Position numbers and translations under genes: made by a program. The notes below the pieces were generated by a model, which was given only the letters and a program-made list of their open reading frames with translations, searched no databases and was not told the DNA's origin. 64,000 nt of DNA from Bryoerythrophyllum caledonicum (Eukaryota; Streptophyta; Bryopsida; Pottiales; Pottiaceae): positions 13,023,845-13,087,844 of the forward strand of contig OZ020524.1 in NCBI GenBank assembly GCA_963971425.1. The letters run 5' to 3'. Of the stretch, positions 17,245 to 51,487 are shown one piece after another (the stretch's first letter is position 1; every line of letters begins with the position of its first letter).

Positions 17245-17246
17245 AA

Positions 17247-20681: not shown

Positions 20682-23600
20682 TTATAGGAAACGATTGACT
20701 CCCTTGTCCATGACTTTCTTGATCTCGTTGAAGCTAAAAGTGGGGGCATGGACGAAATAGTCATCCTCGTGATTGAGATTGCACACCACACAGAAGATGT
20801 AGTAGAGGTGCTTGCAGTGGTACCAAGCGTCTCTCTTCTTGGTCCGTGCCAACATGTCCTTGAAATCTGCACAAGAACAATCCGGGAGGGGGCCGACTGT
20901 CAACCGATACTCCGCTGTGGTCTGCGCCTTCTTTGAGTGAAGCAAGATGATGCATCCATTGGCCGGATACGGAATTGGAATAACCTCCGAGATGCGAGCA
21001 TCAAGAATACCAGTTGACTCCCAACGATTTCTCTGCTTCACCGAGACCTTGGCGTTTGGGAGACGGCGAATGCGGCGACAACACCGAATCGTTGGATGTG
21101 CATTGGGTTCAGAAGGCAGTGGAATAGTAGCAGGATGTGCGGCACGATTGGAAGCGTCTCCAAAGAGACGCCTTGGTGAAACTTCTCGGCGGTCTTCAAG
21201 CTGGAATCCAGCCTCCTCCAGTCTAAGAATCTCCGCCTTTGTGAGGTTGGTGCCCTTCAGCACAGGCCATACCTTGGTGACCGGAGACCGGTGGTTCACC
21301 CACTTCCACTTCGTTCCCTTCACACAACGTTCGATGTCGTCAGCACACTGGAAAAAATCCATGACTTGGTCCTTCAATGTCCTTCAAACGTGTTGAATTC
21401 TAGAGTAGGTAAGAGCTAGAGTACTTTTGCTTAGGCGCACAATCTTCTCCTTACACGTCCTTCGTGTTTGGGCTTGTTTAGCAAAACAACTCTTCCCTGA
21501 ATTCTTAGGAAAATGAGCAATGTGTCATTTCTTCACATCGCACTCTGACTTATGGACTCTTGTGACATGCGTAACCCTTAACGACACCATAGAAGCAGAC
21601 GCCAGTGGGGACATGATTCAGACGTCCTCAGAGGAAGTAGGAGAACAAGGGAGAGATACATCAATGGCTGGTGGCGCACTCTCTCAACGTGCTCTAGTGG
21701 ATCTAGTAGGGACTTTGGGATGGGAGAAGTTCATCTTGTCCGGGCGGTGACTGTTAAACTGGGATCCAAGTGGAAGGTCAAGCTTTCGCTTGCCAGACCC
21801 AAAGACTTCCTCCCCTTCAAAATGAGGCATACGAGTGCACCACTCCTTAGCTCCGGGCATGCTCTCCATTGCTTCTACAACTTTACCAGGCTTTCCCGTT
21901 CTCTGGGTATGGCGTAGTCGCAACTCCTGCTTGGAGGGCCCGTTACCCGATCGCCCTCCCTTCAAGAACTGGAAGTAGTTAGTGCACTGCATGAATGCAC
22001 GTACGAAGTCGTCCACTGTAGCATCGTACAAGTCGTTCCCCTTGTTGCTGGATTGTTGAAGCCAACGGTTATGAATTGTCTCTGCCAAATTGCAAGATGG
22101 CATTTTAGCCCGTTCTTCAACGTTGAGGTCGTGTGGAGTACATATCAACGGTACGGATTTAGGTTGTTGGATCCAACAACCAAAACGACTAAATACTTGA
22201 GGCGGTCAAAGGAGTCTTACCATTTGCATGGACGCACCCCATTGCCGGTAGCGGTAGTGCCAAAATGTGAGCCACTGATCAAGCTGCTTAAGAGCTTCAT
22301 CATTTAGAGCTCCATAGGATTGCCACCATGCCCGAATTGCAAGGTATCAAACTTCCGAGTCGGCTGAAGTCTTGGAATCCTTGTATTGCTTGCACAGGAG
22401 ACGATGCTGATTCTGGAATTCACTCTTGATGTACTTGTCCGTATGACGATTCATAGAGGTAGTCCAATGAAAGAGGCAAGTGCGCTCGCGATCAACCATC
22501 ACCTCCTGCGGATCACCAGAACCGTAGATCTTCCTCACTGCATTCCAGTTTGCACCAACGCTATCCGCCATAAATCCTTTGAAGTTGATGGAGTTGAGCC
22601 CATTTCTTGCCATGACTTTGCTGATTCCCTTCCACATGAGACATTGGGCCTCCGTATCTTCAAATTGCATGTCACATACGGTAATCGTCATCACTCTACA
22701 GTAGTGGGAATCGTACACATGGCACGCCATAGTGGTCTAGTGTTTGACGCGTTTGACATGATCAAACATTAGCCACGCATCTTGTATGTCTCCGCCGGCT
22801 TGCATCCTTGTCACGAGATCAACGCCGGAGCCGGGTCCTATCTCACTCATTTTGAATACAAAGACTTTATCCTTGTCACCCCCTTGGCCAGGAAACATAT
22901 TTCGCTGGACAAATGGCCATGTTGTACATCCCCTCATTTGACGAATGCCATCCATTGCTCCAGTGCGCCCAACCTGCTTGAACGATGAGATGGCATTCTT
23001 AATGTTTGGAAAGGTGAGGTTGGCGTACTTCTCCATAACGTCCTTTATATCTTCAACAATCATGGTCTTCTCTGATTCTAGGGGACGAAGGAGATGTTCA
23101 GCAAGGAACTCCTTGCTTGCTGCCATTGCAATAGCTGAATTCGTAGCTCATGGGTTCCGCTCCACGTGTTCGCCCAATAACGTATTAATCTTCATCTCGG
23201 ACTCTCGACAGGTTCCAAACGCAACAGGGTGGTCATCGATGCCAATGCGCATACAAGCACGAGTCATCCATGGTGGTCCTTGGACGTTGTAGGTAATGGC
23301 ATTACATGTAGCAAGAACGGTAGGCAGGGTTTTGCATACCTAACATATTAGAGTCGAACCTTTGGGAATTTGAGCCCCATGCACAAATGGCATAGGGGTG
23401 TTCCCCTCCCACTCCTTCTCGTTGAAGGGCTCCTCCTTGTTGGGGCACATCAAATAATCGCACTCCATGTTATCGCAGCGGAGATGTCCAGAACAAGAAA
23501 AGCTCCATTCCATTCGAAATGTTTGAAGTCATCGTAAGGCACGAGCAATGGCCGTCGTACTTCTTATCCATACCTTCCATGTTTTTAGCTTTGGAGGTGC

Positions 23601-24331
23601 TAACGTCCATTGAAGCAGGTGGCAATTCGAAGATGACGTCACCGTCGTACGTGGAAGGGAGGAAGTCAACTTTCATATGGGGCATTGTAGCATAGTTGAC
23701 GGTCTTCAGCACGTTCTTCATTCGTGGTCTAGAGGCCAGACTCTTCAAACACGCCACAACACTAGTACGTTCCAGCCTTCTAGGGTTCGGGGATGCAGAG
23801 GGGGCCGTGAAGCGGAAGATGGAGTCGGAGGTAGACAATGTTGGGAGAACATGGACGCCGGTGGCGTGATGAGGGTTGGAGAAGTACGTGATGTGATATC
23901 TTCTGGGGGGAAGTCGTCTTTGCTGTCAGAGATATGGATGGGAGAAGCAACAACAGGATATACGGAAGCCGGGGTAGAATCTGGTGCGCTTGTTTGTGGA
24001 GTGTTAACAGCCGGTTGATGGTGGAAGTGGTGGATTTTCCAGGCATCAAGATCTCCATAGATGCTTGCATCTGCATGTCACTTAAACCAAACACTTTGTA
24101 AGTACCCTCCTTCAAAGACCATGCCTTTTGGTCACTTACAAGTATACAGAGTTGAAGCATGGTGTAGCTGATATCTTGAGCATCATCTACAACCTCTTCC
24201 TCTACATGGATAGTATCTATATTGTAGCCAAAATGAAGTGCAAGTAGCGATGAAGTAACCAGGGCAAGCCCATCAACTCCCAATGGAATTCGGATTGGAA
24301 TAAGATGACTGTCAGTTCTGAGTGTAGCCAT
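20682..24331 (-). pseudogene. Broken MULE transposase (outer element)
   Basis: The start is ATG at 24331 (MATLRTDSH...), and pieces in successive frames run to 20682. They align in order with the intact transposase of the inner MULE: the N-terminal region ending GLSDMQMQASMEILMPGKST, the catalytic core (CHVYDSHYCRV, then GFMADSVGANWNA), the third acidic site in NLAETIHN and the SWIM zinc motif (DCSC...HCKHLYY). It is broken by frame changes and by a TAG at 22737-22739 exactly where the intact copy has Trp before TTMACHVYD, a G-to-A type change. A GTAAGA at the position of the inner copy's intron donor suggests the same intron once existed. It cannot encode an active enzyme as it stands. Confidence 0.85.
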
Positions 24332-24720
24332 TATATAGACGCAGTTTGAGTAGAGACAAAAGAGGGGAAGAGGATGCCTACAGGGAGTGACAAGTGCATT
24401 GCGGCAGTTGTATTTGATGATGAATAGAAAATGGGAAAAGGGGCACATCATGGGATGGCGTGCCATTAGACTGACCAGTGACACGGGATAAAGATTAAAT
24501 AGCTAATTAACCCATTGAAGGTTGTATCTCTTATTAGATGTTGCAGGATGTTATGACAGCTGCTATTATTGTGAAATAGGTGGTAGGTAGAATAGTTATG
24601 AAAGTAATAGAAGACGTCCTTATAGAATTGGGATGAAGGTTAGAAGTCCCTAGTTAGTCCATATCATTCAGAATTTGAAAACACTCTAATGAAATGATCT
24701 GTTTCGAAATGATCTGTTGT

Positions 24721-25768
24721 TGGTCTTCAGATTACGATTTTTTGAGCTGAATTGGTTTGAAAACTAGTTGTCGGATCCAACAATCAGTTTCGAGATGATA
24801 ATTTACTGGTGTTTGGGTTAGGATTTTGAAAGCTGGATCGCTATATTTCACAGTTGACAAATTCGACAACTTGTTGAATTGGAGATGATAAGTTGCTTGT
24901 GATTGAGTTTGGATTATCACTTATGAATTGGCATGAGTCCTAGTTGTCGGATCTGACAACCTATTTCGAGATGATCTGTTGCTGGTCTTCAGATTACGAT
25001 TTTTTGAGCTGAATTGGTTTGAATCCTAGTTGTCGGATCCAACAACCAGTTTCGAGATGATAATTTACTGGTGTTTGGGTTAGGATTTTGAAAGCTAGAT
25101 TGCTATATTTCACAGTTGACAAATTCAACAATTTGTTGAATCGGAGATGATAAGTTGCTTGTGATTGAGTTTGGATTATCACTTCTGAATTGGCATGAGT
25201 CCTAGTTGTTGGATCTGACAACCTATTTCGAGATGATTTGTTGCTGGTCTTCAGATTACGATTTTTTGAGCTGAATTGGTATGAATCCTAATTGTCGGAT
25301 CCAACAACCAGTTTCGAGATGATAATTTACTAGTGTTTGGGTTAGGATTTTGAAAGCTAGATTGCTATATTTCACAGTTGACAAATTAAACAATTTGTTG
25401 AATCGGAGATGATAAGTTGCTTGTGATTGAGTTTGGATTATCACTTCTGAATTGGCATGAGTCCTAGTTGTCGGATCCGACAACCTATTTCAAGATGATT
25501 TGTTGCTGGTCTTCAGATTACGATTTTTTGAGCTGAATTGGTATGAATCCTAGTTGTCGGATCCAACAACCAGTTTCGAGATGATAATTTACTGGTGTTT
25601 GGGTTAGGATTTTGAAAGTTGGATCGCCATATTTCATAGTTGCTGAATCCGACAACTTGTTTGGAGATGATAAGTTGCTTGTGATTGAGTTTGGATCATC
25701 ACTTCTGAATTGACAAGAGTCCCAGTTGTCGGATCCGACAACGTGGTTCGAGATGATTTGTTGCGGTC
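24721..25768. repeat. Tandem array, four 262-bp units
   Basis: The landmark 'tggtcttcagattacgattt' recurs at 24721, 24983, 25245 and 25507, an exact 262-bp period, before the pattern decays near 25769. Each unit carries two palindromes of the TTGTCGGATCCRACAA type plus a half-matching third. The array lies upstream of the broken transposase start, inside the outer MULE. Neighbouring units are very similar, pointing to recent amplification. Confidence 0.9.
25467..25742. promoter_or_regulatory. Palindrome cluster GTTGTCGGATCCGACAAC (outer MULE)
   Basis: Perfect 18-bp palindromes lie at 25467-25484 and 25725-25742. Many one- or two-base variants run from about 24770 to 26330 and singly elsewhere in the element (about 22165 and 43125). 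The spread goes beyond the tandem array, so it is not only a by-product of it. A protein-binding site is a fair inference from perfect dyad symmetry, but no function is shown. Confidence 0.6.
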
Positions 25769-26469
25769 TTTGTGGATGGATTTTGGGACCTGAGTTGTTA
25801 TGAGTCTCAGTTGTCGGAACCGACAACTAGTGTTTGGATTGGAATTTTGAGAGCTGAATCGGAATATTTTTCAGTTGTCGGATCCGTCCACTTGTGCGGA
25901 AAGATGTGTAGCTGGTGCCGAATTTTGGATGTTCAATCGGTGAATCAATATAGTTCTCAGCTAACTGATCCGACAACCTTCATTAACTTGAATATTCATT
26001 GGCCGATTTTCTGTTTATGGCTGTAAGAATTTTTGAAAGCAAATTGTTCGTTGCATGATTTGGGGCTCGATAATGCAATCTTAAAGATGTCGGATCCAAC
26101 AACCCTCAATTGGATTTGAGTGCAATAGACACTTTTGAACATCAATAGTTCATTCGGATTAGTATATATACATCGTTGATCTCAAGAGAGTTTAGCTTTG
26201 GGAAGCGATAGCATAGTGCGTCGTTATCAATGGCAGGGAGGGCTCTTTGTTTCTTGGTCAATAGTTGTAGCTCATGAATTTGGATTAGTTTCACATTTAT
26301 GACTTCCTTGATGTCGGATCCGACAACCTTAATTTGGTGGAGAATCATATCACAACTCTTCATTGTGGCTGGACAAAATGGTTGCACATCCGGAATAAGT
26401 GAGTACTTTGACATTCCTCTCCATTGCAGTTCTTCAATCACGTAGCTACTACTATGTCTTTATTTGATG

Positions 26470-26685
26470 TATGTTGATTCTTGCAGAGAGTATGTTTCTC
26501 CATCAAAGGCTTGGGCTCTTCCCTTGTATGCGGAAGATGTTGTGAGGCTCCAAGCTCTACAAGTCTCGCGGCCAATCCCGTCTATTTTTCCTCTTAAGTA
26601 CAACTCCGATGTCATTATGTATCTTGACGTTAAAGCTGAAGTAGATCTTGAACTGTCAGAGCCATCAACATCCTTATCAGAGTAG
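26470..26685 (+). pseudogene. Last-exon remnant of the ParB/MTase-like gene
   Basis: After a possible acceptor (attcttgcag, ending about 26485) a frame reads VSPSKAWALPLYAE...KYNSDVIMYLDVKAEVDLELSE and ends at TAG just after PSTSLSE. It matches the last exon of the inner MULE's gene (SPMKSYDLPMYAE...ESSTSL) in spacing and key residues. No earlier exon was found in the outer MULE, so the rest was deleted. Confidence 0.65.
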
Positions 26686-26699
26686 TGATGTAATAGACC

Positions 26700-27030
26700 A
26701 TTTCGGTCGTGACTCACTGCATTTGTTGTGTTTTAATTTCTATATTATAATTAATATGATTCCAACACCTGGATTTATCTTGATCCTAACCATCATAATA
26801 TGATATGGTCAAATGCTCTGGTCGTATGTCATCATTAAATATATAACAATTTTTAACTTTGATGGCACCTTGCTACTTGGATAATTGTAGAAATTGTAGA
26901 ATTGAGACGAGTTTTTGAGAGACCCCTTTCCAGTTTACGGATCTGACAATTCAATCTGGGAGGAGAATCCTACCTGAAATCCATGTCGTGTGACAATGAA
27001 GTTAGTCCTTTTGAAACAATTTTGGGGTGG
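26700..27030. other. Outer MULE non-coding sequence
   Basis: AT-rich sequence between the last-exon remnant and the inner MULE insertion site. No gene seen. It contains one degenerate CGGATCTGACAA palindrome half. Confidence 0.5.
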
Positions 27031-27039
27031 TTCAGTGTT

Positions 27040-27092
27040 GAGCGACGCTATTTTGCGAGCCTAGAGCGGTGAGCAGTGAGCCTAGAGCAGAA
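27040..27092 (+). repeat. Left terminal inverted repeat of the inner MULE
   Basis: From GAGCGACGCTATTTTGCGAG onward, then CCTAGAGCGGTGAGC. It pairs with the reverse complement of the right end from 41528 inward, with a one-base offset in the outermost 8 bases. Confidence 0.85.
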
Positions 27093-27450
27093 ATAAAATA
27101 CTATTTTAAGGATTCCGGATTAATTTATAATATTTTAATATTAATAAAATTTATTTTTCTTATTTTTAGTAAAAAATAGGACCTATCACCGTGGACAATT
27201 TCACATAATAAATAGAATACTGGATTCATCGAAGTAGATTTAGAGTAACAAAACTTGAACCATATCATATATAATTAACCACGATGAAGAGGGAGATTAT
27301 CAAATTCCAAGACAAAAATTGTACAAATCAAGATATGACATAATCCACAATAGAATAGATAAAACCTTGTAGTGGCCCTTTTAGTCTCACTACATCTTTA
27401 CTGCATGTTTAAAAACTGTATTACAAAGTACCTAAATGGCACAGGAAACC
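27093..27450. other. Subterminal region of the inner MULE
   Basis: AT-rich, non-coding, between the left terminal repeat and the transposase stop; it should hold the transposase 3' untranslated region. No other feature recognised. Confidence 0.5.
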
Positions 27451-30400
27451 TTAAGAAATAGGATGGCTAAGTAGACCGCTCTCAAGAATGCGCTTGATCT
27501 CGTTAAAACTCAGACTTGGAGCATGTATAAAAACATCAATATCGAAGTGTAATCCACAGATCACAATGAAGATGTAATACAAGTGCTTACAATTTGTCCA
27601 CTGACCTCGCTTACCTAGAGATTTCTGCATCATTTCTTGAAAGAATGGACAAGAACAAGTGGGGAACTGTCCAACAGTGATGGAATACTGTTCGATTTTT
27701 GGAGGAGTTCCGGAGTCAAAAGTAGCAATGCATCCAATAGCTGGAATAGGTATCATGGTCAATCGGCGGAGACTACCTCTGACCAAAATGGCGGATGCAC
27801 AAACATTAGCCTGTTTTGTTGAAGGTGCTTTTGCATTCCTACGAATTTTTTTTCCAAACCTGAGCGAGGGATGTTCATCAGGGAATTCCGGAAGAGTATA
27901 TCCGGACAAATCGACCGGAATCCGCTGACCTTCGAATAATCGACGAGGCGATATTGCAGCACGAGGTTGCAGTTGAAATCCTGCAGTTTGTAGTGCAAGA
28001 ATTTCAGAGGTAGTTAGGTTAGTACCCATCTTCACTGGCCAAACCTCTGGCACAGCTGGTTTTGACACCACCCACTTGCGCCTGGTACCCTTGACGCACC
28101 TTTCAATATCATCGTTGCAGAAGAAGAATTGCATACGCTCTTCCCGGTTCTTCTGGTAATTGTGCATCCTTCCAGTATATGTGGGAGCCGCAGTATTCCT
28201 CCCATCCTGGATAATCCTTGCAGTACACTTTCTCTTCGTGATTGCTTGTTGGGCAAAACATGCTTTGGCAGAAGCCTTGGGCAATCGTGCTATGTGCCAT
28301 TCACTCTCATCGCATGTAGTTTCTTGGACGGCAGTCACATGTATACTTGGAGGTGGAACAACAACTGTCTCATCCTCGGCACATGCGGCATGTTGATCTT
28401 CATCTGTCTCCACATGTACTCCAATTCCTGGATTAGCGTCCTCAAGGTGCCTTGATGATCCTTGCCTAGTTTGAACACGTGGACGAGAGAAATTGATCTT
28501 GTCGGGTCTATGGGAGTCTTCATCGCAACCAGGAGGAAGATCTATCTTTTGTTTCAAAGAACCAAATACTTCCTCCCCTTCAAGATGTGGTTCCCGAGTA
28601 CAGAAAGCAGAAGCTCCAGGTAGTTTGGCCATTGCAGCATGAAGTGCTTTCGGATCACCTGACCGATGAGTTGTACGTTGAGCCACTCGTAAGAGCAGTT
28701 CTTCCTTTCCAGGGCCGGTGCCTGATCGATCACCATTCAAGTATTGGTAATATGCCACAACTTGCATGAAGGCTCGAACATAATCATCCACAGTGGCGAC
28801 GTAAAGGTCATTGCCACGATTTCCAGATTGTTGCAACCACTTATTATGTACTGTCTCCGCAAGATTACAAGATGGCATTTCAGCCAATTCGGAATCTGGG
28901 AGGGGCTGAACAAAAACACGAACCATCACATAAAATATAAGAGTGGAACAAAAGAATGGACTATTAATCTTGACATGTGGATTTCACGAATATAGTATTA
29001 ACGTTGAAAGCTGGAGAAATCAGGATAAGAGTATACGAATTGCATGAAGCCGCCCCATTGGCGATAGCGGAAATGCCAAAACGCAAGCCAAAGATCAAGA
29101 CTAGCGACCTCTTGATCTGTTGTTGCTCCAGATGATAACCACCAGGATCGGATGGCATGATATCTAGCCTCCGCCTCTTCGATGGATTTAGCATCCTTGT
29201 ATTGCTTACACATTTGGCGATGCTGTGCTTGGAGATCTGGCCGAATGCTTGCTTTGGTGTGCTTCTCTAACGATTGCGTCCAATGGAAGAGGCATGTCCT
29301 CTCTTGATTCTCCATCGGTAGTGATGCGTCTCCACTTCCATAGATTAGGCGAATAGCATTCCAGTTTGCTTGAGCACTGTCCGCCATAAAACCTTTAAAT
29401 TTTGGATTGGGGACACCATGCCTACTCATCACGAGGTTAAGATTCTTCCAAAATATTGATTGAGCAGTAGCATCTTCTGATTGCATATCACAAACAGCAA
29501 CAGTCATTACTCGACAGTATTGAGAGTCATAGACATGGCACGCCATGGTAGTCCATCCTTTGACACGCTTGACGTGGTCGAACATTAGCCATGCGTTCTG
29601 AAGATCCCCTTCCGTCTGCATCCGTTTGACAAGATCTATACCACTCCCGGGACCCATTTCGGACATTTTGAAAATGAAGACCTTGTCGGAGTCCGATCCT
29701 TGGCCCGGAAACTTGTTTTCTTGAACAAATGCCCACTTGCTAGATCCACGAAGCTTAGTGATGCTATCCATAACTCCGAATCGACGGAAGTATCGAAAAG
29801 ATGTGACCTTATTGCGAATGCTTGGTGAAGACATATGCTTGCAAGTGTTGAGCACTGGAACAAGTTCGTTAAAGGTGAGAGTCGCCTGAGGTGAATCCTC
29901 CGGGTGAAGCAATAACTCTCCAAGTAGATCTTTGCTTGCCTCCATGATAATGGCTGAATTGGTGGCAGTAGGGGTTCTCTGAACTTGCTCTCCAATAATA
30001 CTTTCAGCCCTTTCTGCAAATTCTCTATTGATTCCAATCTTCACAGGATGTGCATGTAAACCAAGATGGATACAAGCTCGAGTCATATGACTTTTAGCAA
30101 GAACATAGTAGATTTTAGCAGGGCAGGTTGCAAGGCAAGAGGGAGGAACCTTACAGACCTTACAAACAACATTCGAACCTTTAGGGAGCTCACATCCAAT
30201 GTCGAAAGTGTTGGTGCTGACTCCATCCCACTCAACTTCATTTGCTGTTGTGGTGCGATGAACTCGGGTCAGGTAATCGCAGTCAACGTTCATACACTTG
30301 AGATGGCCCAAACATGATGATGATCTGAACGTGAGCCCCATGTCGTTCTTGATGTTGGACGTGATGGTTCGCGTCCAGGCGTGTCCGTCGTGTCGTTTGT

Positions 30401-31175
30401 CCATTCCACGAAGGAGCCTCGCTTGGGAGTGCGATGCTGAGGCACCAATAGGTGGCAATTCAAAAACGACATCACCATCGAAAGTGGGTGGCAGGAATTC
30501 CACTTTCTCTAATTTAATGCTACTGTAATCAATCTTTGTAACTACAGACTTCGAACCTTTTCTAGCGGACAACTTTTTAAGGCAGTCAATGACACTAATC
30601 GAATCTGAAGTACGGTGAGGAAGTGGAGGCTTGCCACTAGAGAGACATGGTGATTGAGAGGGCTGAGATAGATGTGATGGGACGGGTTGGACCACGGTAT
30701 GCGACAGAGGAGATTGGGGAGTTGGAGTGTCATCACCAGAGTCATCACTAAGAAGATGGATAGGTTCAAGCCCTGGCTCTATCTTTACTCTCTGGACACA
30801 TGGTGTGTTGAGTGTAGAAGTGGATGATTGTCTGGGAGTAAGAATTTCAGTTGATGCAGCAATAAGGGAGTCAGACAGACCATACAATCTAAACCTTCCT
30901 GGCGGTAGTCGCCAAAACTTAACACCATCATTCAGATAGGAGAGTTGATTGACTGTATGGGTGAGCTCACCAGAGGCATTGTCAAATATCTCCTGATCGA
31001 CCTGCATAGACTCCTCTAGGAATTGAAATCTAAGACTCAATCGAAAGGCTGTCACAATGCAAAATCCTTCGTCGGCAATGGGAAACGAGACAGGTATACC
31101 ATGCCCATTTGCATGTATGAATGCCATTGGAAAAGCAGATTGTGCAAGCTTGGTTGAAACATTGAGGAATGACAT
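27451..31175 (-). CDS. MULE transposase, two exons
   Basis: Exon 1 is 31175-29037 and exon 2 is 28905-27451; both phases fit a GTATAC donor and a TTCAG acceptor, giving about 1197 residues. N-terminus: a GCM/WRKY-like zinc region near residue 290 (CLGHLKCMNVDC, later CKVC, then IHLGLHAHPV). Catalytic core: MFDHV near 533, FMADSAQANW near 598 and NLAETVHNKW near 730, matching the D-D-E positions of MULE transposases. C-terminus: SWIM zinc motif CSC...CKHLYY near 1131-1152. The family binds the terminal repeats in the nucleus and does cut-and-paste transposition with 9-bp TSDs, which is what the flanks show. All motifs are intact, so it may be active. The intron falls between the second and third acidic residues, and a donor-like GT is conserved at that spot in the older copy. 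Confidence 0.92.
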
Positions 31176-32900
31176 ACACGTTTTAGAGGGAATTGTGATT
31201 CACTAAGAAGTATTAACGAGACATTTACAACCAAGCAATGAATGGTTATTCATAAACATTCAATATTTAGCAATTAGGTTGGATTCATTGAATGTACAAT
31301 TAAGATAAATGAAATCAGATGCAGTACAACAGACACACCAAATAATTGACAAGGCTAACAACGAGCTGCCTCGTAGGAAATAGAAAGGGAATTGGATGTA
31401 ACTAAATTCAAATAAAAACAAAATAGTGAGTTAATAAGTTACAGCCGATATGCCAATAATTGATTACACTTAATATAATGTAGTGGTTCAAACCAGTTTT
31501 AATGGAAGCGCCAATTTCCACGTGAATTTTAGCAAAGCACTGTCCATAAAATTTATAAACATACCCAAGTACATGACCCTAAACCAATAATATTTAAATC
31601 CCAAAGATGGTAATGAAAATGGAAAATAGATTCTGACACTACCAGTTTGACACCTCTATTAATATGTTCTATTAAAATATAGGGATTCTGTCAGTAGGTA
31701 GTAGATACAGAAGAGCTTAGTTGTCAAATCTTAATATTTGTATGATAGAGCTTGGTGGTCTTCAAACTGTTGTGGCAACTCCTTCTCTATCTATATTGGT
31801 GCATAAATGAGTTGCAACATGATTTAATAGACCACGAAGGTCTACTTTACTTAAAAAGGTTAGAGAATCAAGTTCTATCAGAGGAAGCAGCTGTTGAGAT
31901 TCAAAATTTCCGAGGGTCCTTATGTGTCAGGCACCTAATTATTTAGTTTAAAAATGAATAAAGCATCCGTGATTGCGTTCATGTACATCATTTAATATGA
32001 TTGCGTTCATGTATATCATTTAATATGATTTCCTAAGGTTGATCTTTTGCGCTATAAGATTGCACATTTCAAGCGTGTACTAATGACTGAGGTAGATAGT
32101 GTTTGAGGTGATACATATATCTTAAGTGTGAGGTGCTAGTTGTTGAAAGCAGTGTATGTGTGCAGAGATGAATCATTGACTATATGCAGCTAGAAAACGG
32201 CAGTGTAGATCATATTTGTGTTGCTAACAGGAAGAGAAGGAAAAAACGCCCGGCGTTATATTTCTCCTCTGCAAAAGCCCTTAGAAGATCCAGAATGAAA
32301 CAAAAGAAAGTGGTATGCAGAATAGGGGGGTCATCACCTGGAGAAGTACGAAAAACGTTGCAGTTTGCCGTAGGAACAAGCAGCGGAGATGTTGCCAGAG
32401 TCAATGCAATTTATGATGGACAGTCAAACGTGCAAGAGAGCGCGGTAGACAAGCACATTGAAAGAACGGAAGTCATTGAGGTAAATGTCCGGAAATCAAT
32501 TGTCGTAGGCAGCATTCAATGTTGATAAATATTTTAAGAGGATTTTCATTTACGGTATGAATTTAGAGTGAGAAATATGATTGTACATTCAATAAATTGG
32601 AACGAGTTAATATGATCCAACATGAAATCAATATCATGGAAATATTGCATGCTTTGTGGAAAGGCTTAGTTAGGAATTTGATATGGAGTTCTGAAGGTCG
32701 GGTTCTAAACCCGAATGGATGACTCCAAATACGAATGGATGACTTCAAACCTGAATGGATGGAACTGCAAATACTATTTCGGTTTACCTAGTATGAGGAG
32801 TCGTCACTCCACTGAAGATTCTATTTCGCCTTTGGTGGCGGCTGCGGGTCTTTGAGAGTTGGGATTGAGGGTTGCGGCAAGGCTTGTGAGGGTTTCGATA
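31176..32900. other. Divergent intergenic region of the inner MULE
   Basis: Lies between the divergently read transposase and the plus-strand gene, so it should carry both promoters. At about 31971-32030 a ~30-bp unit (TGATTGCGTTCATGTA..., ending TTTAATATGATT) is duplicated in tandem. A 113-codon plus-strand frame (32184-32525) begins with a basic, nuclear-signal-like run (RKRRKKRP) and contains a GAG|GTAAAT donor; it could be an upstream exon of the cargo gene but I could not join it in phase. Confidence 0.5.
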
Positions 32901-35900
32901 ATGAGGGATTCTGTGCAGAATGTTTTGGAGAATGACGAATCGATGAGGAGTACACGGAGTCGGTCGAGGGGGGAGCCGGACGACCAAGCCGACGAGGACG
33001 TAAGTTTGAGGATGGGGAGGACAATCAAACGGACTAAGGTGTGCTCAAACTCATCATTCCATCTCTACGTTGTGTGAAACTTGTTTGAGTCTACTTGGGA
33101 TTGAGGAAACTGGTCGATTGAAGTGGAATCTCAATCGGAGGCTGTATTCTTATCTCGGATCCGAGAGGATTGATATTTCTCTTTCGATAGGAAGTGGCTG
33201 CGGGTGAAAGAGTCCCTGCGTTATGTGAAACTTGTGATAGTCTGCTGGGGAATGAAGGAACTGGTCGATCGATGTGGAATCCCAGTCGGTGGCTCTATAG
33301 TTATTTCAGATCCGAGAAGATAGTTTTCATTCTTTCGGGAACTAGTGGCTGCTAGTGCAATATATATGGAGGCCATCATGTCGATGATGAGAGTCACCGA
33401 ATTTTGAAGAGAAAGACTGTTCGTTTTCTCCTTGGAGCCTTTTCTTTGGAACTTTCGGGAACGGGATGGTGTGGAGGGGTGAGCTGTCTCCATTATGTGG
33501 GTTGGTGTGCATCGGGTTGGTGTGTAGGAGTGAACTTTTGGAACGGGATGGTGTGGACGGGTTAACTTTCGGGAACGTGATGGTGTGGAGGAATAATATC
33601 TCGGATCCAATAACATCTGAATTCCGTGGAGAAGTGTATGCAGTATCGACGGATTTAGGGAAATTTCTTATAGAAGTCGGGAGGGCTCTTACATACGTCG
33701 GGATGGTTCTTACGTACGTGCCCATGAAGTCTCCAAAGCCCATTGTTGATGTTCTAATTGTGTCACTATCAGAAAGCTCAAATGAGAGCACAAACTGCAA
33801 GGATTTGCAGTGAGAAACTGCAAGGACAAAATGCGAGTCACTTAATGGGCCGAAGAGGACGTATTAATTTCAGCGTTAAGTCATAGGTTTAAGTGGATGT
33901 GCTCATTTTGAGTCTAGAGTTCGTTATGAATATGTTGAATTCAGACCGTTCATGCGAGTCACTAATCGGATCCGATGATGGCATCTTCGGTGTGTGGGGG
34001 TGAGATATTCGTCGTCTCGGGTCCGATACGTACTTCAGATTGGTCTCGGATCTACCTTCACCTTCAGATTGGTCTCGGATCCACCTTCAGCAAGATTGGT
34101 CTCGGATCCACCTTCACATAGTAAGAACTGACGATGGATTTGGAGGACTCTGTCGGAAGGAAAGCATATGATTCAGCTGTGTTAGATTCTGCGGTGTGGA
34201 GGGTTGCCCTCTCGGATCCGAAACTCAATAACACGTAGTGATCGATGATGGATAAAGAGGAGTCAAGATATGGTGGACCGGATGTTTGAGTCCAAACTTC
34301 AGTTTCACTTATGAGAGTCCAGACTGTTCTGCTCTTACACACACGAGGTGAATATGATCGAATCCAGACTGCAGTGTACTTACTAGTATAGAGTGCTCTG
34401 TCATGACTGAATTTTAATGCAGGTATAGGGTTTCGGAATTTAAATCACGAAAAAGGGATTCTCACCTTCTGCGAAACGGGACTGAATTTGACACCTTCGT
34501 TAGCCAAAGCTGGATCACTGAAAGCTAGATCACTCAAAGCTGGATCACTGAATTTTACTTTCGATAGCTTTGAGTGATCACTCAAAGCTGGATCACTGAA
34601 TTTTACAGATCACTAGCCAAAGCTCGACCACTGAATTTTTCTGCAGGTATAGCTATTGTATTCGGCAACTGGAATCTCTCGGTCTCCGATGTAGCTGACG
34701 CTTTAAGAACGCGGTGGACTACTCCTGATTCCGCATCTTGCTTATTCAATACTGGTCCACGCACACTCTGATCACGAAGGCTTGAAGATCAGAACTGGAA
34801 GCAGAGGTATAATCCAACAAGAGTATAGAATTCGTAAATGATACACATGTTTGCCTAAATCAAAACATACAGAAGCGCCACGAGGTATTTTTTTGGAAAC
34901 TTTATCGTGTTGGATAGTCGGTATGAATTAAGAAGGCAGATAACCGATCAAGTATGAAGAATGATTCACCAGGTGAACTGTTCTGATATTTTTTGTTCGG
35001 AGGGGTGAGATTTTTAGTCGTCTCGGATCCGAGATCTACTTTAGCGTAGGCTGGTGGTCCGGTTTTGGCCTTGGGGGACGAAGACAATTTGGGGGTGAAT
35101 GATTCACCTGGAATGTTTATCATGGCGTGTTATTTAATTTTTGGTGTGGACGAGTGAAATAATAGTCGTCTCGGATCCGATAAGGCCATGACGAGCACAT
35201 GAAACGAACAAGCACTTGTATCCTCCAAGCCGGACAACATGTAAATATAATATCGAGTTGGATAATGAGTCTTGTTCCAGATCGCAGTTCATGATCGGTC
35301 AAGCTGGATTCCTGGTTTCATGGATACCCGGTCGGGCAGGATTTCTGCATACTTGGGTACATGGATACTTGGAAACTTGGTCGGGCTGCATACTGGCCAA
35401 AATGAGCTGCATATCTGCCCTTGGATGAAGCTGTCTCGGATCCGAGAACTGCATTGCGGTTATTGATAATTCTAACTATTCTAGGTTCCAGGAACTATCA
35501 TGCACAGAACTTCACGATTTGACCTGCAATTCATTTAGCTTCAAAGTCCATGTTGAGTTCGTGTTGAACCATTGCACTGTGATCTATCACTGCTTCGGCT
35601 TCGTCGACCCGTCCAGTGATTGAGAGGTCTCAGAACAATGATGTCTCGGATCCGAGATAAGCTTCACGATGTCCATCGATTACTACGTTGTCCTTGGATG
35701 ACGCAGTTGGTTCGGTTAAGAGATTATCACCAAGTGTTATGTTTTCTGACGGCTGCTATCGAATCAGCGATGTGGGGGTGCTCTTTCGAAGCTAGCTCGT
35801 AAACTGTTCAGGGATGAATACATCTATTTGCAGTAGTTGATTTTCATGTATATCATCATGGCCAAATCATACTGTATGTTCACGCTTCTTTAGAACTCGC

Positions 35901-38900
35901 CAGGTAGTTGTCGAAGAGTTGGCCTTGGGGTATGCACTTGGTATGGAGGTGAATGATTCACCAGGTGGATTGTCATACCTGGCCCGAGATGGATTCTGTG
36001 ATGTGGTGGGGCTTTAATCCAAGCTCTCTCGGATCCGAGAACATGATATTCTCGTGATAGATGAGCCCTACTGTTGCAGGTTTAAATGAGAGAAGGAAAG
36101 GAGAGGAGACATGATTTCATGAACTGTGTTCAAATCTACTATACTTATATCCAGGGTCTATTGTACTTATTCTCTCGAGGAGAATGAAAACATTTGGTTG
36201 ATTATTTTGGGGATGCAACATGTCTACATGCACATTCATGTGATATTATGGTATTGAGGATCAACACTACTTGGCCCTACATAAGTTTCAGGCGATAGAA
36301 TGATGTTTAGATTCATTTTGTCTTTGTCTCGATTTTACTTATTTGATTTCTTTGTTGTAGAAGTTACTTCCCATAATTGATGACGATATCTCCTCTGGAT
36401 CTGAGCCCCCTCAAAAGGTTTTAGTGCATAGAGCCCAAGTTTCTCAATCTCTTGAGGTCTCAGGAGATTCGTCTTCACATGAGGTTGCTGAAGCTGCAAT
36501 TGTAAGAGTTGAATACATTGTTGTTCTCATTTAGGAAGAATTGCATGCTTTCCTTTTACTTGAATTATCTTGGAGTCAAAAATTTAATAAATTTAATCAA
36601 GAATTACACTAGTGATAATTAAGAGGGCAATCCATTCATTGCTATGTCCTCATGTGAGGGAAAATGATCTCTTCCATGTTTAACAGATGTGATTTGTGTT
36701 GCTACTTCTACTACTTAGTGGTGTGATAACAGTATATTTTCCAAGTCTTGATTATTTTTGTCATTATCTTCATATGTACAAATTGTAATGACAATCGCAG
36801 GAAAATGTGTCACTTACGAGTCTATCTCAAGGGCACCTCGATGATCGTACTCCTGGATCTAATGAGACTGCCCAACCCGAATTTGGAGGTCTGGCAGATG
36901 ATGGTGAACTTGAAGGACCCGTTGATGAAGGCCTTGATAATGAAGAGAAGGAGTTGTTTGAATATGACTTGCGTCGTCTCCAGAAAGTGGATTCCGTGAC
37001 TTCAATTTCCTCATTAAGGATGAAGCCTGAGCATCTATTCCGCCTTCGCATCCCCTTGTGCAGACTTGTTTCTATGCCAATGGTAAGACCAACTCTTTCG
37101 TGCGACATTGTGAAACTTGAACAGGAGTTTGTTCATGGATATCGAGATGGGGCAGCAGTTTTTTATGTCTCCATCACTAATGAAGCTGGAGTGTGCATGG
37201 AGTTCACGACGGATGAGATTTCAAATTTTGGAACACTATGGAAGAAGGAGAATGACGTATTTGAATACCATGTAAGTTCAATACCCGAACTCAACTTCCT
37301 GAAGAATGCAAAATTTTTTGTTTGCGACGGCAATCACCGGCTTCTAGCTTGGATGAACCACATTTCCAGGCTTCATTCAGCTGATCCCACCTGGCACATC
37401 GCCGTTGACTGTATCGTACTGGAGACAAGGGGACGGATTGAATTGGTCATGCAAATTATGCATGACATAAACAAGTGAGTTTTTTGTCATAGACTGAATT
37501 ATGAGATCATTTTCTCATTCGGTTTTCTGCTTATAATTCTGCAGTAGATGTAGATTTCTGATCTCGATTCTGGTATCACTTCCAGGTCCACTGAGGACTC
37601 TCACGTAAAAACCAACTTGGTTCACACACTGTACCGGGTTCAGAAGTACGGTCTTCTGCCACTGGAGAGGTTTTGTGACTTGCTCAGACCATCAGAGAGG
37701 AGACGGTGTTCTTTGCAATTGCCTCGCAAAACTTGGTATTTACTACCGGTTGATGTCTTCACTGCATTTATTTTCAGGGTGAGACATATTACATGTTGAC
37801 TTTCAATTAACATTTTTGTGTTATTTTTTTGTTGAATTTTTATTTTAAACGTTCCATTAATGGATATAGTGCTTGATGCTTGTAGCAAGAAATTGCAGCC
37901 GCATCAGATGCTGCACTTCGACAATACCATGAGAACACACCAAATGATGAAAAAACAGACGTCGGTGTTGCGGATGCTATGAGACTAGGAGCTAAAGAGA
38001 AGTCCACGAAATTATATCAAAAGATGCACAAATTTCTCACCGTTGCCAATCCTACTCTTGGTCCAGGGTTTCTTGAAGAGGTTAGTTCTTCACATCGCTT
38101 TAATCCCTTCTAATCATTTTCATGATATGCATTCGATTCTATGATAATTTTTTCTCTTGGACTTATTATCAGGTGGAGAGTCATTGGAGCTCTAACGAAG
38201 TTCCAGAGATGACCTTGGAGAAACTCCAGATGGTAGCTACATGTTCCACTACTCCCTACCACAAAATTAAGTTTCTTCAGTGGTGGAACTCATCCATGCC
38301 ATCTCGGGACGCTAGGCATTTTCCGCCCAAGCCTGTTTCGGAGCTCCATCTTGGTCCATTTCTGAACAAATGCGTTTGGTATGCCGGGGTATGTTTACCA
38401 CTACTCATAGCAAGAAAATTTAATACTGAACAATAATAAATTTCGGGATTCATACTTAATTTCAAACTTTCTGATGCAATCTTGTAGATCGAAGATGCTG
38501 CTATTGAATTCCTTGATATGGTCATGAAGAAGGACAAAATCCCGATCAATATGAATGTACCACTCAAGCCGGAGCCTTTGAATGTGTACGTGGAAGGGTG
38601 GAGGCGCAAAATTTGGGATCACGGTTTTTGGGCAATTATTAAAGGAGCGAATCATTTCAAAAAGATTGACAACTTCAAGACTTTTGAAGGTTCAGGGCAG
38701 GCAGTGCAAAGAGTAATTTTCAGGTTTGATTTTCCTGACACTTCATTGTAAATTCTAATTCATTTTAATGCTTTTCATATCCACAATGACATTAATTAGT
38801 TGCTTTGTGTAAAATGGGCTTACTGTAGAAGTGCATTGTTTTAATCAATCTTATTTGAGTAGTTATGTGAAATTCTTATACGGACTTCCTTTATTGTTGA

Positions 38901-41119
38901 TTCCATTACTCTAGGTACTTCAAGTACGAGTTGGAACCAAAAGGTGCAATGGCTCATACAGATTTCCCACCTTTCTTGTCGTCTTGGTTGGACCGTAGTT
39001 CCAAGGAGTGTATGTTTACTCCTATTCAATTCCGCACCTTTACGACAGTCCACCTCAGTGGGGGAGGGTGGTACTTGGATTGCAATGTTACCTTCACCCA
39101 TCCATCAGAGGTTGAGCTGAGGAAATCCTTTGATGGCCTTGGTGCCATCACTTTGGATTTTGACGAGTTCGTCGGCCTCACAGAGAAACAAAAGAAGAGA
39201 GCCATTGCCAAAAGGGACGCCACTGATAAGAAGAAGGAGGAACGTCTCCAAGAGATTGTGACCTCAAAGGCAAAGAAAGAAGAGGAACGCTTGGCGAAGA
39301 AAGAATTGGATCGCTTGGCAATGGTAGCAGAGAAGGAAAGGGTGAAAGACAAAGGTAAGAAGGCTGATATTGGAGTCCCAATTCCAGCTTCTTCAACAGT
39401 GGACAGTGGCTCTCAGATGCTTGGTGGTTCGTATAGTGGTGTGATGAGGCCGGCTGCACTTCCTGAGTTCTCAGAGGATGTGATTACTCATGGGACACAA
39501 CTGATTGTCCTTGATGAAGACAATATGGAGAACTTTGGAGGATTAATTCTTAATATCTCCATCTCAAAGTTGTTGGAAAATATGGACACCACGACACCCA
39601 TAACATATACTGAGGTTTCCCAATTTCTGAAGAAGGTAATCTTTTCTTAAAATCGGTTGCATAACGTAAAATATTAAATGTCCATGGACATTTTGCAGAA
39701 TTTACTAACTGATTTACTCTCGTGATTTTTTTCTATAGTTTTCTGGAGATAAGGCTCGAAAGATCAATGGCGTGGCAGATATCAAGCCAACGGTGGACCT
39801 TGTTCTTTTTGACTGTCAGGAGAATTTGCCTGTACCAGGAGTGTCTATACCAGCGACTATGGTACCAATTTGGAATGAAGACAAAGAGTATGAAGACCTT
39901 CAGTCAGCTTTTGCATTTGCTGAACTCCATCTTCAAGACGATGGTTGTATGATCGTGTTCCACTCATTCTCTGCTGTTTCAAAAGGCAATATTCTTGGAC
40001 TTTGTGAGACATATCAGATGTTGAAGAAGAAGGAATGGTTGGGCATGAATCGTCTTCACTTGACTTCGGCATTGGATGTTACTACCACTGTGAGTTTTTT
40101 ATAGTGTTCTTTATTTTAATTCATACGTTACCGAAAGTGTCGTTTATCTTCTTGATATTGATGTTGTTTGTAAATTGACAGACGCAGAAGTTTGGAATCA
40201 GCCTCCTTGTGAAAGACCTCGGTAAGAAAGGAAAATCTAACTTCTCTTTCAAACGGTCAACCACAATGAAGAATGCAAGTGTTGACATCGGACGAGACGA
40301 CATGTTGATTAATTATACCACCGATCGAGACTTGGCGATGAATGGTGATATTCCGTGGCGGGGGCCTCGTCAGAAGGATCCTCGATTTTTCCAGCTTCTT
40401 TTGGAAGGCACGACCGTCGCTGGAGATTTGGTACTCGATTGCACTGCAGCTACAGGTGTGTAATCAACTATCTGGTTGTGTGTTTTAATTTCCATCCAGA
40501 AAATTATCTGTTTATTTATTTATCTAAGGTTTTGTTCTGCAAATTTAGGTGCATCAATTACCGCCTGTCTTGGTCTTCATCGACAAATCGTGGCTTTAGA
40601 GAAGGACACGGATTTGTTTGATGCCCTTCTAAAGCCCATGGAGGTGGCCCCTCCTGCCATCAAACCGCCTGAACCCAAAGCCGTGGAGGTGGCATCAGAA
40701 GATCCTGATGCCATGGTTGTCGTGCCTCGCAAATTCAATCGGAAGGCTAGATTCAGTAAGTGAGTGTATACATTTGATTTTCTCTCGTATTTTTATCTTT
40801 TTTTAACTTTTGTTCTAAATACTCTTATTGTACAATATCAATGTGCAGCGGTTCAGGATTGACATTAGCCACGACATTGGTGAAGAATCAGGGTCTTCTT
40901 TTAAGCCCAATGAAGTCATATGATCTGCCAATGTATGCGGAGAAGATGGCAATGGCATTTGCGGAGTTTGGTTGCTCTATATCAAAATCCAAGAAGTATG
41001 ATGATAATGTTTTGAAGTATATAGATGATTCAGCAGTTGAGGATAGAGAGCCATCAGAGTCATCTACGAGCTTGGATTTTATGTTAGAGGTTTCTACAAC
41101 TGAGTCTTCATCGTCTTAG
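32901..41119 (+). CDS. ParB-like / beta-class amino-methyltransferase-like cargo protein
   Basis: Twelve exons with GT-AG sites that stay in phase: 32901-32999, 36361-36501, 36801-37474, 37586-37778, 37886-38080, 38173-38388, 38488-38723, 38915-39635, 39739-40089, 40182-40455, 40549-40759, 40849-41119; about 1193 residues. Seen: an acidic N-terminus; residues about 165-330 shaped like ParB/sulfiredoxin domains (RIPLCRLV..., FVCDGNHRLLAW near 256, then a helix rich in acidic and Asn residues); a Lys/Glu coiled coil about 670-735; then DLVLFDCQENLP (about 845) and LQDDGCMIVFHSF, followed by DPRFFQLLLEG, GDLVLDCTAATGAS (about 1030) and IVALEKD. Motif IV-like before motif X/I is the circular order of beta-class N4-cytosine/N6-adenine methyltransferases, and bacterial and phage enzymes fuse ParB-like domains to them. 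DCQ in place of D/S-P-P-Y/W argues against normal catalysis, so it may only bind DNA. Exon 1 is the least certain part. Confidence 0.72.
33000..36360 (+). other. Long first intron of the cargo gene
   Basis: 3.36 kb between the GAC|GTAAGT donor and the TTGTAG acceptor. It has no convincing exon. It carries scattered CTCGGATCCGAG palindromes (separate entry), and near 34500-34620 short tandem repeats of 'gctggatcactgaa' type. If exon 1 is wrong, part of this is promoter instead of intron. Confidence 0.5.
33154..36039. promoter_or_regulatory. Palindrome cluster CTCGGATCCGAG (inner MULE)
   Basis: Perfect 12-bp palindromes at 33154-33165, 35022-35033, 35435-35446, 35645-35656 and 36028-36039, with at least seven near-matches between (for example about 33598, 33965, 34073, 34100, 34212 and 35168). 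The surrounding sequence is not conserved between copies, so these are not simply repeats of a longer unit. The core CGGATCCG is shared with the outer MULE's palindromes, but the flanks differ (CT/AG against GTTGT/ACAAC). This suggests a co-evolving binding site; function is inferred. Confidence 0.65.
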
Positions 41120-41456
41120 ACTCCTTGAGTTTTTAGAAACCTTAGATATTTTGTATTGATTTTATTATGATTGAATTTGTGTGCTTTATGGCTATATAAT
41201 TGGGTGATGTCTTCTTGATAATCATGTTATTCATCACATTCTTTACAGCAAACCATATACATTTTATAAATGTAATATATCCATTCAAACAATTTTTGTT
41301 CATGCTCCAATAATAATATTATAATCACATCAAATTTAACAATTTCAAACTTTTATAATCTCACGGTAATAGGTCCATCACTGTTTTTTCTTTATAAAAT
41401 GGTACAATAATCTCCATACTTCCTACCAAATTTTTCCGTCATGGCTTAAAAAATTC
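41120..41456. other. 3' flank of the cargo gene
   Basis: AT-rich, non-coding, between the cargo stop and the right terminal repeat; should include its polyadenylation site. No other feature seen. Confidence 0.5.
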
Positions 41457-41528
41457 AGCTCACCGCTCACCGCTCACTGCTCACCGCTCACCGCTCACCG
41501 CTCTAGGCTCACATAATAGCATTCCCCG
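41457..41528 (-). repeat. Right terminal inverted repeat with 7-bp iterations
   Basis: Inside the tip the sequence is an almost pure run of CTCACCG 7-mers (about seven units, one changed to CTCACTG), then CTCTAGGCTCACATAATAGC and the end. The same unit is sparser at the left end and present at both outer MULE ends. Repeated units at MULE ends are typical places for transposase binding; that role is inferred. Confidence 0.85.
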
Positions 41529-41537
41529 TTCAGTGTT

Positions 41538-50510: not shown

Positions 50511-50524
50511 AACCACTAACAATA

Positions 50525-51487
50525 TAATCCAAGTCAGGCAATTTAAATCCATTGCCTGACCAAGTCAAAATCGTCTCTGTGCTTCCGAAATCCTAGGCAC
50601 ATCGGTGATGCTAGTGGAAAAGCCCGTGACTCTTTCCCGCTCATCTGCATTAGGCTCCACCATCTTCTGGGACAATAAATCCCATACAAGCCCAAGTTCA
50701 TTATCCTTGAAATCATAAGACCGTGCAAAGCTAACCAATGTAGGCAAGGCCCTACGTGGTTCTTCTTTGCAGTTAACCACCGCTAATGGTGTCTGATCAT
50801 CGTGATACACGCGCCGTGGTGTCTTGTGAGGATCCAAAATATCACTCACATACACATCTAGGCGTTTAATGCGACCCACCGCGGATTGTAGCAACTCTGC
50901 TGGTGCCAGATTTGTCCACCACAAGCATGGTCGATGTGCTCTTGATCCTAGTGCAACCGCATCAATTAACACTGGCAAACCTTGAGTCTGATGGATTCTG
51001 TGCATACTCTCAAGTATCATGGACCTCGAACTGCTCACCACGGGCACATTCTCTACAATATAACCAGGCGGTTGCCTCTGAGAAGTTTGAAGCAACCGAA
51101 GTACTCGAATCAAGTCAAAGAACCTGGAAGAACGGGAGTCCTTTAATCCATTCTGATTGCCTGCCATAGACATGCCTTGGCAAGGCCATCTTGCAATAAT
51201 AAGGTCCACATGACCCACACGGTGAATGTCATCCTCTGACAACAAGGAAATATCGCCCACAAGTCTAGAGAAAGAAGTTTTGATGGCACTAGTGGCCAAC
51301 AATTCAAGAAATTGTGTCCTCAGTCTCCGTGTGTGACGTTTGGCCACACGCCTTGCTACTTCATCCACATCCACATAAATGTAGCGCTTAACTTTGATCC
51401 CCGCTTGTAAAACAGCTGCCAATCCTGTGCCAATTCCTGCAAATAGCTCCAACAATACAATGCCATCTGTTGGTGCCTACGAATGGA
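50525..51487 (-). pseudogene. DNMT3-like C5 cytosine methyltransferase domain in pol
   Basis: About 320 codons with all major C5-methyltransferase motifs: I, LLELFAGIGTGL; II, YVDVDEVARR; III, VGDISLL; IV, WPCQGMSMAG with the catalytic Cys in PCQ; VI, IVENVP; VIII, DAVALGSRAHRPCLWW; IX-like, RERVTGF; and X, LGQAMD. Motif I with 'GLAAV', the spacing, and 'AHRPCLWWTNL' are closest to DNMT3/DRM-type enzymes; there is no chromodomain or BAH insert. The domain transfers methyl groups from S-adenosylmethionine to DNA cytosine. It is in the same frame as RT (50108 onward), so it was part of the polyprotein, between protease and RT. Two stops (51477-51479 TAG and 50565-50567 TGA) flank an open 297-codon core. 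Charophyte Gypsy elements with such domains have been reported. Confidence 0.88.

Follow-up and report, generated by a model that had tools for sequence, protein, structure and literature searches.

A plant transposon gene with ParB-like and degenerate methyltransferase-like parts and subfamily-specific palindrome arrays

Results

Element and transposase

The window analysed, a stretch of 64,000 nucleotides from Bryoerythrophyllum caledonicum (Bryopsida), contains a 14,488-bp element flanked by 10-bp target duplications, a second copy of which was also seen. It carries a transposase gene and, divergent to it, the gene considered here (gene 2), and it is adjoined by a related element with an internal deletion (Table 1).

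Table 1. Features of the element and of its deleted neighbour, with positions in the window
Feature	Position	Strand	Remarks
Left target-site duplication	27030..27039	.	GTTCAGTGTT; identical 10 bp at 41528-41537
Left terminal inverted repeat	27040..27090	+	GAGCGACGCTATTTTGCGAGCC..., with GAGCGGTGAGC repeats
Transposase gene	27451..31175	-	ORFs 31175-28998 and 28929-27451; divergent to gene 2
Gene 2	32901..41119	+	12 exons (predicted), 1193 aa; ParB/Srx-like, middle region, degenerate beta-class aminomethyltransferase-like
Gene 2 exons 1-6	32901-32999, 36361-36501, 36801-37474, 37586-37778, 37886-38080, 38173-38388	+	
Gene 2 exons 7-12	38488-38723, 38915-39635, 39739-40089, 40182-40455, 40549-40759, 40849-41119	+	
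Intron 1 of gene 2	33000..36360	+	contains palindrome array
Array of 14-bp palindromes	33153..36040	.	TCTCGGATCCGAGA; 10 sites at <=3 mismatches, 5 exact
Exon 3	36801..37474	+	ParB/Srx-like domain, CDGNHR
Exon 9	39739..40089	+	motif IV position, DLVLFDCQEN
Exons 10-11	40182..40759	+	motif I region, KDPRFFQLLLEGTTVAGDLVLDCTAATGAS...ALEKD
Right terminal inverted repeat	41477..41527	-	minus strand reads GGGGAATGCTATTATGTGAGCC...
Right target-site duplication	41528..41537	.	GTTCAGTGTT
Adjoining related element	20697..26676	.	internally deleted
Transposase of adjoining element	24349-20697	-	46-48% identical over most of length; stops and frameshifts
Palindrome array of adjoining element	24769-26325		TGTCGGATCCGACA
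Leftover of gene 2's last exon in adjoining element	26494-26676		

MULEs with terminal inverted repeats have target duplications of 8-11 bp, and the 10-bp duplications and inverted repeats found here, in both of the two copies with both ends visible, are compatible with such an origin. The sequence-only reading of this DNA had taken the element for a plant MULE; the plant host stands and the duplication length fits, but a MULE transposase did not emerge from the profile comparisons. The transposase ORFs gave no Pfam family at E <= 1, neither of two joined transposases gave any family at E <= 10 (MULE domain PF10551 included), and hhalign of the transposase against three MULE ORFs of the same genome, drawn from three of six Pfam-MULE loci examined, returned a probability of 0.35% on thin profiles. 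A PDB profile search yielded a single match, a snake-venom chain at E 0.055 that we take as chance, and a CxC...CxH motif close to the transposase end appears SWIM-like by eye. Because the transposase, of no matched Pfam family, lacks a match to Pfam's MULE model, membership of the element among the MULEs is unproven. A divergent transposase partner lies beside 13 of 19 rows of gene-2 matches at >=86% identity, a count that leaves out partial matches at 86-95% (C8:834277, C11:5736221, C1:47324518 and C7:30563602); with these four added, only C11:5736221 among them having a divergent partner, 14 of 23 rows are paired. A second pairing list, complete at 20 of 20, consists of chosen rows and hence gives no rate. 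Transposases that are 89% identical form a further group in the genome (C1:39893907 and others).

Structure, copies and selection of gene 2

All 11 predicted introns of gene 2 are GT-AG and the exons give a single frame in which FVCDGNHRLLAW, DLVLFDCQ and GDLVLDCTAATGAS follow in this order, confirming the earlier description of twelve exons joined in one frame with these motifs. At E <= 0.001, both a 66-aa segment of exon 3 and exon 9 in full match at least 150 places each in this genome, so that the predicted gene is far beyond chance. When the protein was spliced onto 20 genomic copies with a purpose-made aligner, intron positions and phases were common to most of them, recurring down to about 40% identity. 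Seven copies (L010, L011, L012, L014, L023, L025 and L027) are free of stops and frameshifts over most of the gene, as are the partial copies L017 and L022; each of the remaining 11 has at least one stop or frameshift. In L043, a sibling copy that is distant, the sequence corresponding to exons 8-11 forms one 530-aa open frame with intron 10 read through in frame, which supports joining these exons in that frame, while exon 1 has a counterpart in one other compared locus, L040 (70%), most other loci ending short of it. We regard the 12-exon gene, its splicing as predicted, as real. Introns are read through in many metagenome relatives.

Gene 2 is under purifying selection. Eleven of 12 copy pairs have dN/dS within 0.13-0.42, dS being above 1 in two of the 12, and the outlier, L013-L015, has 0.89 at a dS of 0.009. 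Alignments A1 and A2 comprise the window with six and five of the 20 copies respectively; near-duplicates were dropped, as were copies that have stops or gaps in the aligned region.

Gene 2 has many introns, and its copies within a single genome have diverged widely. No relative turned up in the viral contigs or in the bacterial and archaeal genomes scanned, and a full-length homologue search with one sequence gave none at E <= 0.001. Recent uptake from prokaryotes, as the motifs had at first suggested, is not borne out.

A ParB/Srx-type fold and a degenerate methyltransferase-type fold in one protein

A ParB/sulfiredoxin fold in gene 2 is supported, and the DGxHR-type signature is present as CDGNHR in 119 of the 120 relatives listed. 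The full-length protein matched no Pfam family at E <= 1, and no ParB Pfam match was obtained with it, with six members or with exon 3 alone; weak signals came from DUF1015 (best E 0.045) and a ParB-like PHROG (best E 0.12), in two of the six members each, and the sole profile match of exon 3 alone was RDM1 at E 0.19. The proposed ParB-like assignment is supported at the level of fold.

A beta-class aminomethyltransferase fold, with motif IV preceding motif I, is likewise supported. The structure model was built on a relative, P0146, which ends after motif I (mean pLDDT 73.0); P0146 matches PF01555 at E 5e-4, the L043 frame reaches only 0.19, and nine of ten metagenome relatives match no Pfam family at E <= 0.1. 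Support from sequence profiles is uneven for both parts, whereas the presence of the two folds in one transposon gene is supported.

Active beta-class enzymes have a motif IV of the DPPY type, [DNS]PP[YFW], and usually DPFxGSG as motif I. In all 18 copies whose alignment extends to motif IV this reads DCQE or D[ILV]PE, with no aromatic residue, in keeping with the degeneration first read from DCQ. With a regular expression based on the sequence context in this family, the site was located in 25 of 61 metagenome relatives, each with Glu or Asp at the aromatic position; [DNS]PP[YFW] itself, scanned for separately, occurs in one of the 61, P0125, at a different position. Motif I is DC[TS]x[AS]TG[AS]S in aligned copies, rather than DPFxGSG, and DWNASTG and DVSVGTG in two distant ones. 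Since motif IV has the form D-x-P/Q-E, catalysis has probably been lost, and the departure from [DNS]PP[YFW] leads us to class this part as a degenerate relative and not as an active enzyme. That gene 2 might instead be an active N4C/N6A methyltransferase marking its own transposon, as proposed for an Ectocarpus protein in the portion of PMC12477816 available, would accord with the PF01555-type profile and fold and with the acidic residue retained after motif I (ALEKD); given both altered motifs, we consider it improbable.

Palindrome arrays

Arrays of 14-bp palindromes lie in the shared 5' region of gene 2 and the transposase, between their coding parts. The core TCGGNNCCGA occurs nine times in intron 1, and the remaining 58.9 kb, both arrays excluded, has none. 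It is common to all six variants seen, which include TCTCGGATCCGAGA, TGTCGGATCCGACA, AGTCGGCTCCGACT, CGTCGGTGCCGACG and TCTCGGTACCGAGA, the remaining bases differing by subfamily. For one variant, all 36 genome-wide sites lie on the same strand as, and 5' of, one subfamily, and a cluster of another, traced in the genome, led to the same gene pair, in a copy whose examined stretch does not include the ParB exon and whose splice has one stop and one frameshift. Ten of the 50 TCTCGGATCCGAGA sites listed are not 5' of any listed copy, in a comparison that covered the exon-3 matches listed for C1-C3 and a part of those for C4, C6 and C7. GATC (Dam-type) was considered as the target and dropped, because the central bases vary among subfamilies.

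Degenerate repeat units in the flanks of the sites, and a 262-bp tandem repeat in the neighbouring element, could suggest that intron 1 merely contains the neutral debris of tandem repeats. The array is in part an old degenerate tandem repeat, so that its sites are not all independent, and their choice by motif resemblance raises the information content of the motif. However, the symmetric 14 bp are retained where the flanks lose similarity, and with a core shared by all variants we judge neutral debris to be highly unlikely. A role of the ParB-like domain in aiding transposition, as a nuclease or NTPase beside incidental arrays, seems to us just as improbable: the accessible part of PMC5512222 describes DNases with a ParB fold and a ParB-methylase that has nicking activity, but such an activity leaves the subfamily-specific palindromes unexplained.

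Since transposase, gene 2 and palindromes travel in one element, the transposase or a host transcription factor could also read the palindromes, which would then be operator or enhancer sites while gene 2 acts otherwise. Their position between divergent coding parts, the co-inheritance of transposase and site, and the neighbouring element, which kept transposase and array while losing most of gene 2, are consistent with this. The transposase, however, must act at the element ends, whose repeat differs (GAGCGGTGAGC), and recognition of six variants, each tied to a transposon subfamily, is not what one would expect of a host factor; moreover the neighbouring transposase is itself broken, and a copy sharing that element's variant has a transposase and, of gene 2, the C-terminal part or more. 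We therefore regard operator or enhancer sites as a doubtful explanation.

Discussion

Our preferred reading, to which we give a probability of about 0.5, is that gene 2 encodes a transposon self-recognition protein, parS-like or VANC-like in design and perhaps anti-silencing, its binding inferred by analogy. A dimer of the protein would bind the 14-bp palindromes, as in ParB-parS, Noc and VirB-virS, and may spread from them along the element; once bound it would keep the shared control region unsilenced, or switch both genes, as VANC does in VANDAL, while the methyltransferase-like part could contact DNA or cofactor without normal catalysis. Each subfamily may carry its own address label in the DNA and a protein that reads it. 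More tentatively, and with the odds somewhat against so full an account, this would amount to ParB-parS-like addressing, in which the ParB-fold protein loads on subfamily-specific palindromes, spreads and keeps only its own copies unsilenced, the burnt-out methyltransferase serving as a second DNA-contacting part, and in which protein and site co-diversify without cross-activation between related subfamilies of one plant genome. Of the VANC-like role raised in the sequence-only reading, targeting gains indirect support from the subfamily-specific site arrays, and anti-silencing keeps its perhaps.

Gene 2 resembles the beta-class adenine methyltransferases CcrM and M1.HpyAVI (DpnA) in motif order, fold and profile match, and differs from them in its degenerate catalytic motif IV and SAM motif I. 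The cognate sites of ParB, Noc and VirB are, respectively, parS, the 14-bp NBS and virS, parS and NBS being palindromes of about 14 bp; with these systems gene 2 shares the ParB/Srx fold and candidate palindromic sites of similar length, but they are bacterial, whereas gene 2 resides in a plant transposon. VirB, a ParB-type antisilencer, has been shown to bind CTP and to load as a clamp (PMC10770331, in the part available).

VANC of the Arabidopsis VANDAL MULEs is, like gene 2, the second gene of a DNA transposon with short motifs repeated in the element's noncoding DNA and varying between related families, a resemblance of design only. The VANC motifs as printed in the accessible text of PMC5735166 (YAGTATTAY, AGTTGTCC) are short and non-palindromic, and binding and demethylation were demonstrated by experiment (PMC5735166; PMC10398659); here, in contrast, the sites are palindromic, the role is read from sequence and the protein has ParB and methyltransferase folds, neither mentioned for VANC in the available portions of those two papers.

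A close likeness, by description, is to the accessory protein of the brown-algal transposon Sola1-1_Ec32 of Ectocarpus (1104 aa; PMC12477816, as far as its accessible text goes), likewise the product of a large gene opposite the transposase strand, with ParB-like and N4C/N6A methyltransferase parts and of similar length; the same text states such genes for green and red algae too. The type of cargo is therefore not new, having been reported in a Sola transposon, and the suggestion that no described MULE carries it turns on a MULE identity that is unproven. Unlike Sola1 as described there, the present element has 10-bp duplications, a transposase without assigned family, a degenerate motif IV and palindrome arrays. 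New here are these 14-bp arrays, with the core TCGGNNCCGA and subfamily-specific bases outside it: that text names no target site for the algal proteins, whereas here a candidate target is visible in the DNA, and since the symmetric sites change with the subfamily, what ParB-methyltransferase proteins read becomes testable. If true, the proposal would place beside VANC a further plant system in which a transposon counters silencing in a sequence-specific way, here by means of a fold of the bacterial partition type.

Results

Gene 2, the ParB/sulfiredoxin-like and degenerate aminomethyltransferase-like gene of the transposon, was confirmed where the sequence-only reading had placed it, its twelve exons joining in one frame of 1193 codons followed by a stop, with introns that are all GT-AG. 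In the 437-Mb genome (894 contigs) that holds the window, a 66-aa piece of exon 3 (the ParB region) and exon 9 (motif IV) each match at least 150 places. Spliced alignment of the gene-2 protein onto 20 copies, picked to span the identity range, revealed intron sites and phases common to most of them (304/2, 369/0, 434/0, 506/0, 584/2, 825/0, 942/0, 1033/1 and 1103/2); an intron-poor sibling presents the counterparts of exons 8-11 in a single 530-aa open frame, intron 10 included. The dN/dS ratio is 0.13-0.42 in 11 of 12 pairs (the remaining pair has a dS of 0.009) and 0.05-0.37 for the ParB region (11 usable values). Gene 2 is a family under selection. Among public proteins the ParB region matches 773 of 2206 candidates at E<=0.1 (120 listed) and the methyltransferase region 62 of 4795. 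Scans of viral contigs, bacterial genomes and archaeal genomes found no relatives. The genome also holds a LEAFY-type gene, with a SAM_LFY match at E 1.3e-27. Its DNA-binding exon encodes YLFDLYEQC, in which the Asp is of the moss type, and the host is thus a land plant, probably a moss.

The terminal repeats of the element are flanked at both ends by GTTCAGTGTT; GCCCCACAGG lies at both sides of a copy on contig C14, and the right ends of copies L009-L017 share the terminal motif, with differing DNA beyond. The element had been called a MULE, and the 10-bp duplications fit MULEs, but its transposase is unassigned: a Pfam search with a cut-off as lax as E 10 gave no family, and profile comparison with MULE ORFs from this genome showed no similarity; because of the duplications we term the element MULE-like, by its ends only. 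Among the 150 transposase matches scored, a divergent transposase lies 7.1-8.1 kb 5' of 13 of the 19 exon-3 matches at least 86% identical, or 14 of 23 once four partial matches are added. Nine transposase places of identical score are 89% identical to that of the window, in 730-aa open frames, and none of the exon-3 and exon-9 matches listed falls within 30 kb of them; this group is a recently amplified relative that perhaps lacks gene 2 or has a strongly diverged version of it.

Features of the window and of related places in the genome (C, contig; L, other genomic copy of gene 2)
Feature	Place	Strand	Remark
Near-identical long repeats, 10,076 bp apart	7171-19700		apparently a young LTR element
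Gypsy-like polyprotein ORF between them	10223-16195	minus	1990 aa
Neighbour element	20697-26676		related element; broken transposase; remnant of gene 2's last exon only
Element with gene 2	27040-41527		terminal repeats at its ends
Transposase	31175-27451		divergent to gene 2
Gene 2	32901-41119	plus
Intron 1 of gene 2	33000-36360
Gypsy-type retroelement	48129-53117	minus	integrase H2C2 and RNase H ORFs
C5-cytosine DNA methyltransferase ORF	50565-51476		PF00145 E 1.5e-12
DUF659 ORF	58116-58802	minus	E 6.8e-31
89%-identical transposases, including	C1:39893907, C1:33134330, C2:3049383, C6:31156170, C8:8417616
TGTCGGATCCGACA cluster	C3:752545-757941
Variant TC-AT-GA	window group
Variant TC-TA-GA	L027/L041
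Variant TC-GA-GA	L022, L023
Variant CG-(TA,TG,CA)-CG	L025, L026, L028
Variant AG-CT-CT	L018-L021
Variant TG-AT-CA	neighbour element

The Gypsy-type retroelement carries the cytosine methyltransferase ORF, which adjoins an ORF whose match to aspartyl proteases is below threshold; cytosine methyltransferases occur in retrotransposons of other eukaryotes. DUF659 is a feature of plant hAT-like transposases.

Intron 1 of gene 2 contains ten sites within three mismatches of TCTCGGATCCGAGA, five of them exact. The whole window contains 20, against 2.43 +/- 1.42 expected; the other ten sit in the neighbour element and are nearer to TGTCGGATCCGACA; the neighbour's own variant lies partly inside a 262-bp tandem repeat. 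Information content, partly raised within the 14 bp by the way sites were chosen, reaches 1.3-1.8 bits at all of the 14 positions but one, which has 0.5. Outside, values are mostly under 0.5 (maximum 1.1), and the flanks contain degenerate repeat units. The core TCGGNNCCGA is constant and the surrounding bases form mainly one own variant per subfamily. This core is present in the examined 5' region (1.2-1.5 kb for L009-L017) of 19 of 20 copies, the exception being L024; three of the 20 also have it within the 4.5-kb gene body, or have it there instead (L022-L024, one apiece); shuffled sequence gives about 0.

Genome-wide, TCTCGGATCCGAGA occurs at 128 sites against 0 for the reversed control; among the 50 listed, 40 lie on the 5' side of an exon-3 match, at a distance of 0.9-6.3 kb, and 10 do not. 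The directional AGTCGGCTCCGACT has 36 sites (control 0), all 5' of, and on the same strand as, copies 69-80% identical to that of the window. Of these sites, 30 are no more than 4 kb away and six are at 17-20 kb, namely three on C12, with distance taken to an exon-9 match, and three on C10, where an opposite-strand copy is closer. For TGTCGGATCCGACA (65 sites, control 0), a cluster on C3 was chosen blind to its surroundings. It is flanked on one side by a transposase (49% identical) and on the other by gene 2 in the opposite direction (residues 435-1178, motif IV DVPE; the stretch examined excludes its ParB exon). In this single blind trial, then, the gene pair was correctly foretold by the palindrome.

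Discussion

Terminal repeats and palindromes are two distinct site types at two separate places. The palindromes are dyad-symmetric, 14 bp long, flanked by the coding parts of the two divergent genes, and variable by subfamily around a constant core. Most economically, they would be sites read by a dimeric, element-encoded protein, for which the ParB-fold gene-2 protein is the obvious candidate. The main rival reading assigns them to the transposase instead. The observed/expected CpG ratio is 0.86 in intron 1, the least depleted of the parts measured, against 0.65 in the exons, 0.54 in the other introns and 0.67 in the transposase (0.54-0.80 across the other element parts measured; 0.69 for the whole window), which would weakly suggest low methylation there.

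A search largely confined to the open-access literature found no land-plant case of a ParB-methyltransferase transposon gene, nor any report of cognate palindromes for such genes. The Sola1 element of the brown alga Ectocarpus has, opposite to its transposase, a gene for a 1104-aa protein that combines ParB and N4C/N6A methyltransferase, and such genes are reported from green and red algae too (PMC12477816). VirB is a ParB-type antisilencer (PMC10770331). The motifs of VANC, the second gene of Arabidopsis VANDAL MULEs, are described as tandem repeats in noncoding DNA that differ between families (PMC5735166), a design matched by the subfamily-varying noncoding site arrays of the present element.
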